A stretch of 64,000 bases of DNA from Loktanella salsilacus. GTDB lineage: Bacteria; Pseudomonadota; Alphaproteobacteria; Rhodobacterales; Rhodobacteraceae. Below the pieces are notes generated by a model. It saw nothing but the letters and a program-made list of their open reading frames with translations, ran no database searches and had not been told where the DNA came from. A program made the position numbers and the translations under genes. Shown in pieces: positions 30,143 to 37,711 of this stretch. Position 1 is the first letter of the stretch, and each line of letters opens with the position of its first letter. The DNA is taken from assembly GCF_900114485.1 (NCBI RefSeq), contig NZ_FOTF01000018.1:1-64000 (forward strand). The letters run 5' to 3'.

Positions 30143-31303
30143 TTAGACGGGAATGACGACCTTCTGGTCCTGCGCAGGCGCATCAAGCGGAAGGTGGTTA
30201 TCCATAAGAACCAATATGTTTTCCGCACCGATGATGTTGCTTTGGGTCTTATATCCAATGACGTCTTCGACCGGTCTATCCAGATTGCGCGCCATCAGCA
30301 GCGTTTCCTCGGACGAGAAGTTGGTCAGGCCGCGGGCGACCTCTTCGCCGTCTTCGCTATAGACGTGCAGCACGTCGCCTTTTAGGAAGTCGCCCTGCAG
30401 CGAAATCACATCGGCCCGGCTAATGCCGCGATCCTTTTTCGCCAGATCGGCGGCCAATGCATTGGACACGACCAGCGTTCCGGATACCTGCAGCCGGTTG
30501 CTGAGCCAGACTTTCAACGGAGACGCGGTTTCGCCTGTGACCAAGCAGCGGGTAAAGCGCCGTTCTTTGTTCAGCACTGATGACACGGGGCGTTCAATGA
30601 TGCCTTCGGCGATAATCGTTTCGACACCTGCGTTCTGGGCCATGTTCGCGGCCTGCATCTTGGTCAACATGCCGCCGCTGCCCAAGGCGCTGATGCCTGT
30701 TGTGGATTCCAGATGCTCGCTGACGTCTTCGATTTCAGAGATGAATGTCGCATCCGGGTCGGACGGGTCGCGGTCATACAGACCCTCGACGCTGGTCAGG
30801 ATGATCAAAAGATCCGCCTCGATCATCTGGGCGACTTTGGCCGAAAGACGGTCGTTGTCACCTACGCGCAGGTCGCGGGTTGCGACGGAATCGTTCTCGT
30901 TGATGATCGGCAAAATGTCGTTTTCGAACAATCTGAACATCGTGTTCTTGATGTTCAAAAAGCGGCGACGTTCTTCCATATCTTCGACCGTGACCAGCAT
31001 CTGCGCCACGTCCAAATCGAACTCTGACGCGACCTGGCGGTAGGCGTTCATCAGCAGGGGTTGGCCGCAGGCGGCAGCGGCCTGTTTGTCCAAAATGCCG
31101 GCATCCTCGGGCCGCTTTCCGATCATATTCAGACCCAGCGCGACAGAGCCGGACGAGGTCAAAACAATGTCGTGACCTTCGCGTTGAAGGTGGGCTAGAT
31201 CGCTCATCAGCCCATTCATAAATGCATAGCGCAAGGTCAGGTTGTCACTGTTTGCAAGCAGGCTGGACCCGATTTTTACGACGATCTTTTGTTTCTTCGA
31301 CAT
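30143..31303 (-). CDS. proB: Glutamate 5-kinase
   Basis: A 386-residue enzyme that phosphorylates glutamate in the first step of proline synthesis. The kinase domain (1-265) shows IVVKIGSSLLA, VTSSG-like LTSSGSVALG, PIINENDSVATRDLRVGDNDRLSA and GSGGMLTKMQAA. A C-terminal PUA domain (about 285-375) follows, as is usual. ATG 31303 is preceded by a GGAGA ribosome site and gives a normal start. It diverges from proC across 274 bases. It is slightly longer than E. coli ProB at both ends. Confidence 0.92.
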   Translation of the reverse strand: MSKKQKIVVKIGSSLLANSDNLTLRYAFMNGLMSDLAHLQREGHDIVLTSSGSVALGLNMIGKRPEDAGILDKQAAAACGQPLLMNAYRQVASEFDLDVAQMLVTVEDMEERRRFLNIKNTMFRLFENDILPIINENDSVATRDLRVGDNDRLSAKVAQMIEADLLIILTSVEGLYDRDPSDPDATFISEIEDVSEHLESTTGISALGSGGMLTKMQAANMAQNAGVETIIAEGIIERPVSSVLNKERRFTRCLVTGETASPLKVWLSNRLQVSGTLVVSNALAADLAKKDRGISRADVISLQGDFLKGDVLHVYSEDGEEVARGLTNFSSEETLLMARNLDRPVEDVIGYKTQSNIIGAENILVLMDNHLPLDAPAQDQKVVIPV

Positions 31304-31577
31304 AGTAAGTCTCCGATATATATTTGAATTAATAGGGAAAAACCTTGGCCGTTTGCGTATCTGGACGCACCCTTGTAGCCAGCCCCTAATCATTGTTAGG
31401 GGTCCTATAACATGCACCCACTGCATAAGTGCAACCATGTCGCTGCATTGCAGCATTCATTCCGGCGCCTTTTGGCCGCCGGGCGACGTGATCAAAGGGG
31501 CGCAATCCGGTGCCGGGCTCAGTGCAGGCGCGCTGCGCCAGATGCAAGGGTCACCGAGAACAGAAAGGACAAAAGCG
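31304..31577. promoter_or_regulatory. Divergent proB/proC intergenic region with stem-loop
   Basis: The 274 bases contain CCCCTAA-N6-TTAGGGG (31383-31402), a perfect 7-base stem about 80 bases upstream of proB. There is also an AT-rich stretch next to proB with TATATATTTGAATTAATA, which may supply promoter elements. No further gene was seen. Confidence 0.4.
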
Positions 31578-32357
31578 ATGAACATACTTTTGATAGGCTG
31601 CGGCAAGATGGGCGGCGCGATGTTGCGCCAGTGGATCAAGCAGGACGCAAACCAATTTACGGTCGCTGATCCGGGGGCAACAGACCTGCCGGACGGCGTG
31701 ACCCATGTCACAAAAACGACAGATCTACCGTCCGCCGCATTCGATGTCATCGTGATCGCAATCAAGCCGCAGATGATCGCCGATTTGCTGCCGGGTTATG
31801 CCCACGCCCTGAAACCCGGTGGCTGCTTTGTGTCGATCGCGGCGGGTTTCAGCGTTGGCGCACTGACGGATATCGTCGGCCAAGCTGCGATCATTCGCGT
31901 GATGCCAAATCTTGCGGCGATGGTCGGGATGGGCGTGTCGGGGCTCTACGCGAACGATGCCTGCACACCGCAGCAGATCACCGATGTCACCGCGTTCATC
32001 GCCGAGACAGGGCGCTGCGTTCCGCTAAAAAGCGAGGACGAGATTGACCGCCTGACCGCCATCAGCGGCAGCGGCCCGGGTTATGTATTCGAGGTGATGC
32101 GCACCTATGTGGCCGCCGCTGAAGAGCTGGGGTTTGACCACGACACGGCGCGTGCGCTGGTGTTCGATACGATCACGGGCACGGTCGAGGCCGCGCGCCA
32201 GTCAGACGCTTCGCTTGAAGAATTGCGCAATTCCGTGACCAGCAAGAACGGCACGACAGAGGCCGGATTGAACGCGCTGATGCGCGACGGACAATTGGAC
32301 GCGCTGTTTCGTGACACCGTGCAGGCCGCATATCGCCGGGCCACAGAATTGAAATAA
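31578..32357 (+). CDS. proC: Pyrroline-5-carboxylate reductase
   Basis: A 259-residue NAD(P)H enzyme making proline from pyrroline-5-carboxylate. The Rossmann motif [16 protein letters not shown] opens the protein, [13 protein letters not shown] and VRVMPN-like [12 protein letters not shown] follow, and the C-terminal signature [14 protein letters not shown]...[17 protein letters not shown] is intact. ATG 31578 gives the family start; longer in-frame starts would run into proB. proA follows 35 bases on, after a ribosome site AAGGAGAG. Confidence 0.92.
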
Positions 32358-32392
32358 GCGCGGCGCTTTTGGCGCTGCGAAAGGAGAGACAT

Positions 32393-33667
32393 ATGAATGA
32401 CCTAAGCACCGATACAGCCGGTATGGACGTGGCCGCCGTTGTTGCAGACCTTGGCCAGCGCGCGAAAGCCGCAGCGCAAGAGCTTGCTTTGGCCACGGCA
32501 GACCAGCGCAATTTGGCGCTACGCGAGGCGGCGAAGGCGCTGCGTGCGCGCACGGATGACATTCTGACCGCGAATGCGGCCGATCTGGACAGCATCAGCG
32601 GCAAGGATGCGGCATTCATTGATCGCCTAACCCTGACCCAAGACCGCGTGGCGGCGATGGCGGATGCCGTCGATGCTATTGCGGCGCAGTCCGACCCGCT
32701 GGGCCGCACCCTTGCGACGTTTGACCGGCCCAATGGCCTAAAGATTGACCGCGTCAGCGTGCCCATTGGCGTGATCGCGATGATCTATGAATCGCGCCCG
32801 AATGTCGGGTCGGACGCAGGCGCGCTTTGCGTGAAATCAGGCAATGCGGTGATTTTGCGGGGCGGTTCAGAAAGCCTTCATTCCTCGCGGGTTATTGTGG
32901 CCTGTCTGGCGCAGGGCCTTTTGGCTGCGGGCCTGCCCGAGGATGCCGTGCAACTGGTGGATACCCGCGACCGCGAGGCGGTAAAGCTTTTGCTGCACAG
33001 CACGGATACAGTCGATCTGGTGATCCCGCGCGGTGGGCGCGGGCTCGTGTCCCTGGTGCAGAAAGAGGCGCGCGTGCCGACGTTGCTGCATCTGGATGGC
33101 AATAATCACAGCTATATCCACCAAGACGCCGATATCGCGAAAGCCGTGGGCATTGTGCAAAACGCCAAGATGCGGCGCACTGGGATTTGCGGTGCGACCG
33201 AATGTGTCGTCATCGACCGCCAGATCGCAGATCAGGTCTTGCCGCTGCTGCGCGATGCACTTGGCGACTGCGAATTGCGTGGCGACGATGCGGCGCAAAA
33301 GATCCTGCCCGGCATAATCCCTGCAACGGACGCCGATTGGGACACCGAATATCTGAGCAACATTATTTCTGTGAAGGTTGTCGACGACTTGGCTGAGGCG
33401 ATTGCGTTCGTTCAGGCCCACTCGTCTGGCCACACTGATGCGATTGTGACGGAAAACCATGACGCCGCGAAGCGGTTCATGACGGCGATTGATTCAGCCG
33501 TCGTGATGCACAATGCGTCAACGCAGTTCGCCGACGGAGGTGAGTTTGGCATGGGCGCAGAAATTGGCATCGCGACTGGTAAAATGCACGCGCGCGGCCC
33601 GGTGGGGGCCGAACAACTGACCAGCTTCAAGTATTTCGTCTTCGGTGACGGGCAGCAGCGGCCATAA
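32393..33667 (+). CDS. proA: Glutamate-5-semialdehyde dehydrogenase (gamma-glutamyl phosphate reductase)
   Basis: A 424-residue enzyme for the second step of proline synthesis. Key text: [46 protein letters not shown], the catalytic Cys in [13 protein letters not shown] and the C-terminal [23 protein letters not shown] 32393 follows AAGGAGAGACAT. With proC it forms a two-gene operon facing proB, giving all dedicated steps from glutamate to proline in one locus. Confidence 0.93.
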
Positions 33668-33938: not shown

Positions 33939-33966
33939 GGAGGAGCTGGCTGGCGTGTTCGGATCC
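33939..33966 (-). repeat. Degenerate copy of tRNA-Gln 3' end (putative distal att site)
   Basis: GGAGGAGCTGGCTGG at 33939-33953 is identical to 37629-37643, which covers the 3' end of tRNA-Gln and its first downstream bases. Over 28 bases, extending into the T-arm, 24 match. Orientation is the same. This is the geometry left when an element integrates at a tRNA 3' end and duplicates it. Confidence 0.55.
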
Positions 33967-33993
33967 CGTCTAGCTGGAAGATGCGGGTTAGCT

Positions 33994-34314
33994 TCACTCT
34001 TTCTCGCGGCAGCGGAAGCCACCGACTTCCTGATTACCTTTGACAGCCGGGGGGGTGGTTTCAGGGAATGCCCGTCCCTCGTCACGGCCTAGATGGGACA
34101 CTGGAACGTTGGCGTACTTGCTAACGAACAGCCCGATGGAATGCAGGCCTGATTTGTAGCCCCCAGGACGCAACGCCACGGCCCGCTTCCTAAGGTAGAT
34201 TTTGGCAAGATCCCCAACCTTTGCAGAGGTTCGTTTGGTTCCGCTGAAACGCCTAAGCCCAGAGGGTTCCAGAGCAGCCCGTAGGCGAGCAACGGTTTGC
34301 TTGTTAACGCCATC
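33994..34314 (-). other. Unrecognised open frame without clear start
   Basis: This frame runs from just after a stop at 34315-34317 for 106 residues. It reads as a basic, soluble-looking sequence (TSAKVGDLAKIYLRKRAVALR, then RPGGYKSGLHSIGLF). The only ATG is at 34179, two fifths of the way in. It ends about 30 bases from the putative att site, where an integrase would be expected, but no recombinase motifs are visible. It could be a gene remnant or chance. Confidence 0.3.
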
Positions 34315-34527
34315 TCAGTTCTCACAAAGTCCCTGAGCAGGCAGCCCTCTCAAGCGCACACGTCTTCGCCAGATCAGAACGCCTACATCGCGCGATATGG
34401 GCCGCACCGTTAGGCGCAAGTGGCCCGACCAATACATGATCAACAGCATTTAGTCGTGGCTCGTCAGGGACGTCTAGAGTGGCATCTTCATCGTTATTTA
34501 AGATGTCCAAAGTACGCAAAATATTGA

Positions 34528-36696
34528 ATGTATAGCCAGGTGAAAATGTCTATGTACACACCGCGTAAGATGACATTGATGTCGTTACTGTCCGTGATCA
34601 TATTTCTGGCGGTCGTCGGTTCTGGTGTCGTGATGTTTTCGTCAGAACTGGACCGCCGCGTCGTGGATGACAGCACGCAACTGGTGTCACGCTATTTGAA
34701 TAGCCAGCGCGAAATGCTGAGCGCGTTATCCGACGATTACAATAATTGGGATGTCGCTTACGATAATATTCGTGACGGCGATATGGACTCCTTCTATGAA
34801 AATTACGCCTCGGGGGCCGAAGGCGGGGATGTTTTCACTGAATTGCATATCCTGAATGCGTTCAACCACCGATCGACCTCCTGGACACAAGGATCCGCTG
34901 ATGTCCCGGTTTATGACGATAGCTATACTGCGGGGCTGGCACGCACAGTTCGGACCATGATGGCAGGGCGTCCCATTATGCCGCAGACTTCTTTTCAGTT
35001 TTATACATTTGATGAGGGTGGGTTTAAGCTTCACGCGGCGTCATATGTCATGCCGACTGACCCGATACGCCTGCGCACGTTGACCACCACAGATGCGTCC
35101 GTCGCGATCATGACGCGGGTTATTGATCAGGACGCGCTGACCAAGATGGGAAGAGACCTGCTACTGACGCAAGTCACCCTGAGCGCCGCGCCGATCGCTG
35201 ACAGGTCTTATTTTGCGGTCCTTGGGCCCGATGGTGCCGTGGTTGCCTATGTGAACTGGATAAGCGCCCAGCCGGGCTCGGAACTTGTGCGGTGGATGCT
35301 GCCTTGGCTCCTGCTGGTCAGCTTGGTCTTTGTGGCCGTGTCTTCGGCCATCGCGATCGTTGCCCATCGCAACGCTACAATGCTTTTAGCTAGGGAAGAA
35401 TCTGCCAATAGGGCTGCGCGAACGGACTCTTTAACAGGCATCGCCAACCGAATGGCCTTCAACGAAGGGCTCAAGAATCAATCTACCGCGCTCCGTAATT
35501 CTGTTGCGCTGATCTACCTTGACCTGAATAATTTCAAAAAAATCAATGATACCTTCGGCCACGAAGTCGGCGACGCGGTTGTCATAGGCGTATCGGCACG
35601 ACTGTCCGAGCTGTCTAAAAACAACACTCTTGTGGCGCGAATGGGTGGGGATGAATTCTCGGTCGTCATTACGAACTGCGCCGACGCTAAAGCAGAAGCC
35701 TCTGCGGTTCTGTTGCAAATAGAGGCGCTGTTGGAGCAGCCGCTTATCATCAATCAAAACAGTTTTAATCTATCGGCAGCCATTGGCGTTGCCATCAACG
35801 ACAACATTGTCCAAGAGCCGTCAGAAATGCTGCGTCGCGCTGATGTCGCGATGTATCACGCCAAACGATCCAGCGATCAATCAGCGCAGTTCTATGATGA
35901 CGGGATAGATCAGACAGCGAAAGAGGATTTCCTGATCGAGCGCGCGCTTCGCGCTTCGATTGAGATGCCTGACGAGTTGGACATCCTGTTCCAGCCTATG
36001 GTGAGTGCGCGGACCGGTCAGTTCGTCAAAGCAGAGGCTCTTGCCAGGTGGCATTCAAAAACCATTGGTCATGTTTCACCAGAGATATTCATCACGATTG
36101 CTGAACGGTCGGGCTTAATAGGAGAATTAGGGCAAATCTTGTTCGAAAAAATATGTAGCCGTATTGTTGAATATCCAGATCTGCATGTGAGCGTAAACGT
36201 TTCTCCTATCCAGCTGCAGGATGATGCATATCTATTAGATATGAACCGCATTGTTGCAAAATACGATATAGCCCCGTCCCGGATCGAATTTGAATTAACC
36301 GAAGGCATTATCGTCGAGAACCGACAGCTTGCCGCAGTTCGACTGAAGCTGATGCACGATATGGGTTTCAAGACTTCGCTGGATGACTTCGGTACCGGAT
36401 TTTCATCGATCGGGTATCTGCGGCATATGCCATTCGACACCTTGAAAATAGACCGTAGTTTCCTTTTGGAAGGGGCTTCCGAGCCCAAATGCCTTCAACT
36501 TATAAAGAGCATGATCATTGTGGGGCAAAGTATGGGGCAAAGCGTCGTTTGCGAAGGAATCGAGACCGAAGCACAGGCGAAGCTGGTGAAATCATTCGGG
36601 TGCGATTTATTTCAAGGATATTTGTTCGATAAACCGATTCCTATTGAGGTGCTTGCTCAAAAGTACTTGAAAAACTACTCGCATAAGGTTGCTTAA
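34528..36696 (+). CDS. Membrane-bound diguanylate cyclase/phosphodiesterase (CHASE4-like, GGDEF, EAL)
   Basis: A 722-residue cyclic-di-GMP enzyme. Membrane helices near residues 15-40 and 255-280 enclose a periplasmic sensor resembling CHASE4 (SDDYNNWDVAYD at about 70). The GGDEF domain has an intact active site, RMGGDEF at 371-377. The EAL domain keeps its catalytic residues: EAL at 503-505, DDFGTGFSS from 619, plus VNVSPIQL, ELTEG and CEGIET. Both activities are therefore possible. The start is uncertain between ATG 34528 and ATG 34546. Base and codon use is more AT-rich than neighbouring genes, suggesting transfer. No operon partner is present. Confidence 0.87.
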   Translation: MYSQVKMSMYTPRKMTLMSLLSVIIFLAVVGSGVVMFSSELDRRVVDDSTQLVSRYLNSQREMLSALSDDYNNWDVAYDNIRDGDMDSFYENYASGAEGGDVFTELHILNAFNHRSTSWTQGSADVPVYDDSYTAGLARTVRTMMAGRPIMPQTSFQFYTFDEGGFKLHAASYVMPTDPIRLRTLTTTDASVAIMTRVIDQDALTKMGRDLLLTQVTLSAAPIADRSYFAVLGPDGAVVAYVNWISAQPGSELVRWMLPWLLLVSLVFVAVSSAIAIVAHRNATMLLAREESANRAARTDSLTGIANRMAFNEGLKNQSTALRNSVALIYLDLNNFKKINDTFGHEVGDAVVIGVSARLSELSKNNTLVARMGGDEFSVVITNCADAKAEASAVLLQIEALLEQPLIINQNSFNLSAAIGVAINDNIVQEPSEMLRRADVAMYHAKRSSDQSAQFYDDGIDQTAKEDFLIERALRASIEMPDELDILFQPMVSARTGQFVKAEALARWHSKTIGHVSPEIFITIAERSGLIGELGQILFEKICSRIVEYPDLHVSVNVSPIQLQDDAYLLDMNRIVAKYDIAPSRIEFELTEGIIVENRQLAAVRLKLMHDMGFKTSLDDFGTGFSSIGYLRHMPFDTLKIDRSFLLEGASEPKCLQLIKSMIIVGQSMGQSVVCEGIETEAQAKLVKSFGCDLFQGYLFDKPIPIEVLAQKYLKNYSHKVA

Positions 36697-37206
36697 CGGT
36701 TAGCCGCAAGCGCAACTAAGAGAACCGCACAGTGTGCCCTGCAACAGCGGCGCCATGGATATTCCCCCTCAGCACGGCCCCGGTCCCGGTCTAGCCCAAT
36801 TCAGTCGCAACGGTGAATGTGGAACAGTATGACGGCTGTGATGGTAGAGGCTCTGGCTGTCTCTCGCACGACCCAAAAGCGCCCCCACCCAGCCCGTGAA
36901 GCCCAGACGACGCAGTCATGCAACGGCCTCACCAACATCCGAGGCCCGCTCTCCAACGCCTGATTAATGTCGTTGCGGGAACCGCCCGGCAAAAATAAAA
37001 ATGGGGCAGCATGAACCCCCAGCAGCCGAAGCCATCAAGGAGTTTGTCACCGCGGCATCTTCCGTTTCATTGCTTAGTCTGCCAGCCAACCCCAGTAATC
37101 ATTGGCATGCGCAAACCCCTGATTTAGGCAGCAACCGCAAACTCGAATACCGAAAAAACCTACACTTTGTTAGGCTCCACTTGACCTGCTGACGAACCAC
37201 ACGGAG
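36697..37206. other. Gene-poor interval inside the island
   Basis: These 510 bases hold only short frames of 63 residues (minus strand 36801-36992; plus strand 37001-37192) with no recognisable similarity or good ribosome sites. I see no RNA gene here. It is probably degraded DNA of the island. Confidence 0.5.
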
Positions 37207-37507
37207 GTGGCCCTTGCGAGGGCTGCCAACCTTCTTGAGGTCACGCCTACCGACGAGAACGGCTGCATGGTCACGGATACGGAGCGCGCCCCGTAAGATC
37301 ATGTTCAACGGACGGCAGGTCGCGGCTTACCGCTTCGTGTACTGTGTGCTGACCGGATCGGTGCTGACCGAGGATCAGGTCGTGCGGCATCGGTGCCATA
37401 ATCGGCGCTGTGTGAACCCCGAGCATCTGATTGAGGGGACCCGGGCAGACAACAAGCGCGACGACTATGATCACTGGGCCAACGGGACTGATTACCGCCA
37501 CCTGTAG
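37207..37507 (+). pseudogene. HNH endonuclease, frameshifted
   Basis: The C-terminal part (NGRQVAAYRFVYCVLTG, then VVRHRCHNRRCVNPEHL and GTRADN) is the core of small phage-type HNH nucleases with CxxxxC...H metal and catalytic residues. It lies in the frame ending at 37507. The expected N-terminal strand (LLEVTPTDENGCMVTDTERAP) lies in another frame, open from before 37207 until a stop at 37294. Joining the two near 37285-37293, next to a CGCGCCCCG run, rebuilds a normal protein. I infer a one- or two-base indel. Such genes occur in phages and in homing elements, which fits the island context. Confidence 0.65.
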
Positions 37508-37636
37508 CGTGTGGCGCAGGCCGTCCGGGCGACCTCAGAAGGCACCCACGACACCCGCAGGACCAGAGGCATTATCCGGGGCACTTTGTGCACTCTGTCG
37601 GCCCGTGGGCCTAAGTAATCAAGTGGAGGGAGGAGC

Positions 37637-37711
37637 TGGCTGGGGTGGTAGGATTCGAACCTACGGTACACGCTACCAAAAAGCGTTGCCTTACCGCTTG
37701 GCTACACCCCA
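37637..37711 (-). tRNA. trnQ: tRNA-Gln (anticodon UUG)
   Basis: The minus strand folds into a full cloverleaf. The acceptor is TGGGGTG paired with CACCCCA, and the D-arm carries AAGCGGTAAGGC. The anticodon stem ACGCT/AGCGT closes the loop TTTTGGT (anticodon TTG), and the T-loop is GGTTCGAATCC. Discriminator G and CCA are encoded. It is 75 bases long. Its 3' end is the apparent integration site for the island to the left. Confidence 0.95.

Follow-up and report, generated by a model that had tools for sequence, protein, structure and literature searches.

The segment at 33939-37711 lies in the analysed stretch of Loktanella salsilacus DNA (64,000 nucleotides; hereafter the window) and ends on the right in an intact tRNA-Gln(TTG) gene (37637-37711, minus strand, CCA encoded; 65 bits with the Rfam tRNA model), whose 3' end is the proximal attachment site. 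Rfam gave no other RNA family in the segment. The 15-bp sequence GGAGGAGCTGGCTGG (37629-37643, plus strand, no mismatch), made up of the final tRNA-Gln bases and 8 bp of 3' flank, has a second copy 3690 bp away on the 3' side of the tRNA with its orientation unchanged. This second copy is the exact part (33939-33953) of a displaced tRNA 3' end (33939-33964, plus strand) whose remainder is degraded. The sequence-only reading had reported a tRNA-end repeat 3.69 kb apart within a longer 24-of-28 match, and both are real (for the longer match, direct reading gives 24/28 and the repeat finder 23/26). It had also judged the geometry correct for tRNA-site integration, and this too holds: a direct repeat of the tRNA 3' end stands at the far boundary in the orientation that integration predicts, and the tRNA match ends where the arm of an element is expected to start. 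The objection that the repeat may be common elsewhere in the genome fails, because the 4.13 Mb genome has no site for GGAGGAGCTGGCTGG beyond these 2 when up to 1 mismatch is allowed; with up to 2 mismatches they are still the only ones in the window (shuffles give 0.24). A tRNA-Gln fragment is also found in another genome (G005), where the 3' half of tRNA-Gln is copied over 45 nt, at 98% identity, beside a tRNA-Thr (L028:7447-7491), distant from that genome's own tRNA-Gln gene.

Segment DNA matched contig C11 of Loktanella sp. DSM 29012 (G004) inside a gene for a 433-aa integrase with DUF6538 and Phage_integrase domains. With this congener protein as the tblastn query against the window, we found 71% identity over 99 aa at 34051-34347 (minus strand, E = 1e-37), so the earlier statement that no integrase remains is wrong. 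The fossil (34045-34350, minus strand) corresponds to residues 77-178 of 433, contains one internal TGA, lacks the catalytic C-terminal part, and is the only integrase trace in the whole genome. It represents, as a fossil only, a DUF6538 tyrosine integrase of a family that uses tRNA-Gln(TTG) and whose members adjoin that tRNA, and it explains locally how a tRNA-end repeat comes to lack a visible integrase.

Leftward from the tRNA, the segment contains the B arm, an HNH fossil, a conserved stretch at 37016-37123, a GGDEF-EAL gene, an IS3 scrap, the integrase fossil and the A arm (A and B refer to the modules of intact islands described below). The tRNA-proximal B arm carries the shared motif AAAGTGCCCCGGATAATGCC (37568-37587, minus strand), which many related islands also carry, about as far from the tRNA. 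The HNH gene (37183-37507, plus strand; HNH_3 in Pfam) is frameshifted near 37282 and shares 70% and 78% identity, in its two frames, with the HNH protein of island L080; it points toward the tRNA, the integrase fossil away from it. The HNH region also recurs (74% over some 390 bp) at L042:10863-11332 (G007:C29), beside a core that resembles the tRNA-Gln end; the stretch fetched for this locus contains no tRNA-Gln, and that genome's tRNA-Gln is on another contig. The conserved stretch at 37016-37123 (plus strand) resembles, at 71% over 109 bp, DNA immediately downstream of the integrase gene in L041/L054 and L070. It follows the integrase in these relatives (partly also in L074), and here it is out of order, on the opposite side of the integrase fossil. 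We considered it as a remnant of the L041 reverse-transcriptase gene and rejected this assignment, as the segment has no RT homology.

The GGDEF-EAL gene (34528-36696, plus strand; Pfam, with a weak CHASE4 domain) is intact and is probably cargo; no homologue above 36% identity was found in 397 genomes of the family. Pfam searches of the short frames in the segment hit the HNH and GGDEF-EAL proteins and nothing else. The described AT-richness of the intervening DNA applies mainly to the GGDEF-EAL gene (47-55% GC); it does not extend to the ends of the segment, which at 57-61% are near the flanks (roughly 60%). A 75-bp scrap at 34375-34449 (plus strand) occupies the expected place of the integrase N terminus. 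We considered and rejected that identity, since the scrap is better read as the 3' end of an IS3-type transposase frame, with 76-81% DNA identity to congener copies that sit in IS3-like transposase frames dispersed in the genus (the IS3 family was assigned from the translated sequence). At the distal attachment site lies a degraded inner arm, the A arm (33963-33992, minus strand), which matches best the arm of L070 (18/30). Compared with the arms of relatives, this 30-mer has a mean of 12.9 matches, as against 7.5 for random window sequence, and about 0.001 of random draws reach it.

On the right of tRNA-Gln, the genus conserves mscS, kdsA and the genes that come after them. The left flank is a proB-proC-proA cassette (30143-33667) that is located elsewhere in the relatives examined; the genome also has a second proA copy, 56% identical, at G000:C42:216825. 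The proA-mscS spacing proposed earlier as an empty-site test is therefore unworkable as posed, and the left boundary is set by the att site itself. The whole 3.7 kb is absent from 60 relatives, in which only short pieces match and the proA flank is not conserved, and no exact empty site (proA adjoining tRNA-Gln) was found among relatives.

A scan of one genome per species gave 77 loci with related integrases, all but two of them titled Rhodobacteraceae or related taxa. tRNA-Gln(TTG) or a copy of its end is in reach at 43 of these loci; the remainder includes many that are on short contigs or are less closely related. At E <= 1e-80 the integrase is present in 18 of 397 sampled family genomes. 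It was not found in IMG/VR or phage records, and only 5 plasmid records match it (the best is a large Paracoccus replicon, 54%). Intact islands with this integrase family are found at tRNA-Gln(TTG) in other marine bacteria; examples with the two-site layout described below are L072 (Ruegeria sediminis) and L065 (Litoreibacter albidus). Some relatives have tandem units at one locus or several integrase copies per strain (L059, L068/L077, L071, L082/L096/L108).

The intact islands have an unusual order, which starts at tRNA-Gln with the B module and continues with an inverted att, the A module with its integrase and cargo, and a further att next to the chromosome. Their att core, CCTACCACCCCAGCCA, forms the expected direct repeat (in the tRNA and at the distal site), and a third, inverted copy separates the tRNA from the integrase. 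When the integrase is set to the plus strand, the nearest core on the left is on the minus strand in 33 of 33 loci and the nearest core on the right is on the plus strand in 31 of 31; tRNA-Gln itself is found on the left in plus orientation (6 cases) or on the right in minus orientation (15 cases), and in no other arrangement. Up to 475 bp of the sequence beyond the tRNA core is repeated in inverted form beyond the internal core. The distal core usually has a different outer flank; where this flank does match, another copy of the element may come next. The inner arms are inverted repeats as well, for the most part 70-344 bp long. A contig of 3.7 Mb shows the identical order, its distal core lying 11 kb away from its inverted core, so contig ends do not explain the layout.

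Module B, on the tRNA side, encodes a DUF5906/D5-like protein (PHROG annotation 'DNA primase'), usually together with a small HNH protein. In L058, L064, L065 and L080 the inverted repeats of the B module reach into the HNH gene, giving one end a full-length copy and the opposite end a mirror copy that is truncated. Alternatively, module B encodes a protein of about 500 aa belonging to PHROG 4756; members of this family ('unknown function'), including those at L085:14046-15566 and L081:12812-14335 and their relatives, have HDS and conserved acidic motifs. A structure model of the PHROG 4756 protein (mean pLDDT 72) has family A DNA polymerases as its best PDB matches, followed by mitochondrial RNA polymerases, at an E-value of about 5e-4 and a low TM-score (0.27). 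Judging from the motifs and this weak fold match, these proteins may be small family A polymerase-like proteins, and we use 'Pol A-like' only tentatively because of the low TM-score. Module A contains the integrase and variable cargo, single members of which match Hachiman, defence reverse transcriptases, Cap4 nuclease, sulfatase and other families.

Modules A and B each occur either way round with respect to the tRNA, and either way round with respect to one another. A pair of integrase and B gene could be assigned in 14 islands; the two genes point the same way in 6 of them and opposite ways in 8. Both orientations, together with the long inverted repeats around the cores, suggest integrase-driven inversion. 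Inversion between two sites is the simplest reading of these data, which are a cross-species snapshot and show it within no one strain. Following the general steps of tyrosine-integrase excision, re-integration and inversion, recombination of the tRNA core with the distal core would release a circle of A and B with two inverted cores; re-integration through either core would explain both orientations of the integrase module, and one module would be inverted if the two cores recombined with each other. A speculative further step would be amplification of the circle, like that of the yeast 2-micron plasmid.

The intact relatives thus appear to be integrative elements with two inverted att sites derived from their target tRNA. 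If this is true, they would have a simple switch that flips cargo, anti-phage systems included, and possibly a route to copy-number control. It is quite possible, though somewhat short of an even prospect, that they, and the segment as a fossil of their kind, belong to an undescribed and widespread class whose own integrase acts on two inverted tRNA-Gln-end att sites, with entry through either site, flipping of the cargo and replication modules against one another and possibly 2-micron-like amplification of the circle. We found no description of the two-inverted-att layout in the literature searched, which largely excludes subscription papers, and its novelty is provisional.

Returning to the window, 33939-37711 is very probably the decayed remnant of a DUF6538-integrase element at the 3' end of tRNA-Gln(TTG), with a parent most likely of the two-site type. 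The idea of a decayed island at this tRNA gains from the integrase fossil with relatives at the same tRNA, the homologue of the islands' HNH gene and the arms at both ends (a B arm beside the tRNA and an A arm at the distal core). The directions of the fossils, integrase away from and HNH toward the tRNA, equal those in the two-site islands L058, L072, L059 and L084, and the integrase is of the clade found in the two-site family. With up to 3 mismatches allowed, the window yielded no inverted core such as relatives carry on the way from the tRNA to the integrase (it was deleted or never present), and no remnant of a D5/DUF5906 or Pol A-like gene is seen in the window, where the companion HNH gene is kept as a frameshifted fossil. 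We therefore infer the two-site ancestry, the parent most likely being a member of the Rhodobacteraceae family with two inverted att sites from the tRNA-Gln end, and call the segment a relic rather than a member of that family. In this scenario, insertion by a DUF6538-type integrase at the tRNA-Gln(TTG) 3' end would have kept the tRNA intact and displaced a copy of its end by 3.69 kb; most of the integrase and the replication gene would later have been lost and the HNH gene frameshifted, with the tRNA and one cargo gene (GGDEF-EAL) as the intact survivors. The window copy is an ordinary dead island, and the interest resides in its family.

The out-of-order stretch at 37016-37123 points to a second element or to a rearrangement. 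Two or more elements may have accreted at the tRNA and their remains been fused by deletions, which would make the 3.7 kb a composite. In favour of this, the stretch lies across the integrase fossil from its position in relatives, and tandem arrays are present in L059 and L071; however, a single integrase fossil and a single distal repeat are visible, and we regard such accretion as possible but clearly short of probable. It is compatible with descent from a two-site element, as a refinement of it. A conventional island with one site at tRNA-Gln (direct repeats only, with integrase, D5 helicase and HNH co-directional), later scrambled by IS activity, is unlikely. Islands of this kind exist among distant relatives (L097, L099 and L105), where the three genes are co-directional and end at tRNA-Gln with no inverted core detected, and the window likewise has no remaining inverted core. 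However, the opposed fossil directions in the window are those of two-site islands, unlike the one-direction type, and the nearest relatives with a visible island (L070, L056 and L064) are two-site. That the repeat arose by chance or local duplication in a merely variable intergenic region is extremely improbable: its exact part is only 15 bp, but it is unique in 4.1 Mb with the correct geometry, and the tRNA-Gln-associated integrase fossil inside the segment refutes this explanation.

The relic and its two-site relatives can be compared with several known systems. P4 and PICI phage satellites are small integrative elements with an integrase and a primase/helicase-type replication gene, and the islands resemble them in size and in both genes. 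No helper-phage functions were identified in the islands (no helper-phage or packaging genes among the 25 of 53 Pfam families listed for the relatives' cargo proteins of at least 180 aa), and their integrase was not found in the phage collections searched. The yeast 2-micron FLP/FRT system has a recombinase and two inverted sites inside inverted repeats on a circle, which exists as two isomers. The islands share the recombinase and the two inverted sites in inverted repeats, on a predicted circle; they differ in being bacterial integrative elements whose site matches a host tRNA gene, and amplification is speculative for them. PsrA of Streptococcus pneumoniae (PMC7096588) is a tyrosine recombinase that acts on inverted sites, as predicted here, whereas in the islands the same core would double as the chromosomal integration site. 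Tyrosine-integrase islands at tRNA or tmRNA sites, such as the IntY islands at the Pseudomonas tmRNA (PMC12595487) and the TIGER/Islander class (PMC12424338), are similar in their insertion at the 3' end of an RNA gene, the direct repeat of that end, the tyrosine integrase and the variable cargo, often with defence genes. Unlike these, the window copy is decayed, and its relatives add a third, inverted site between the tRNA and the integrase, together with long inverted repeats.
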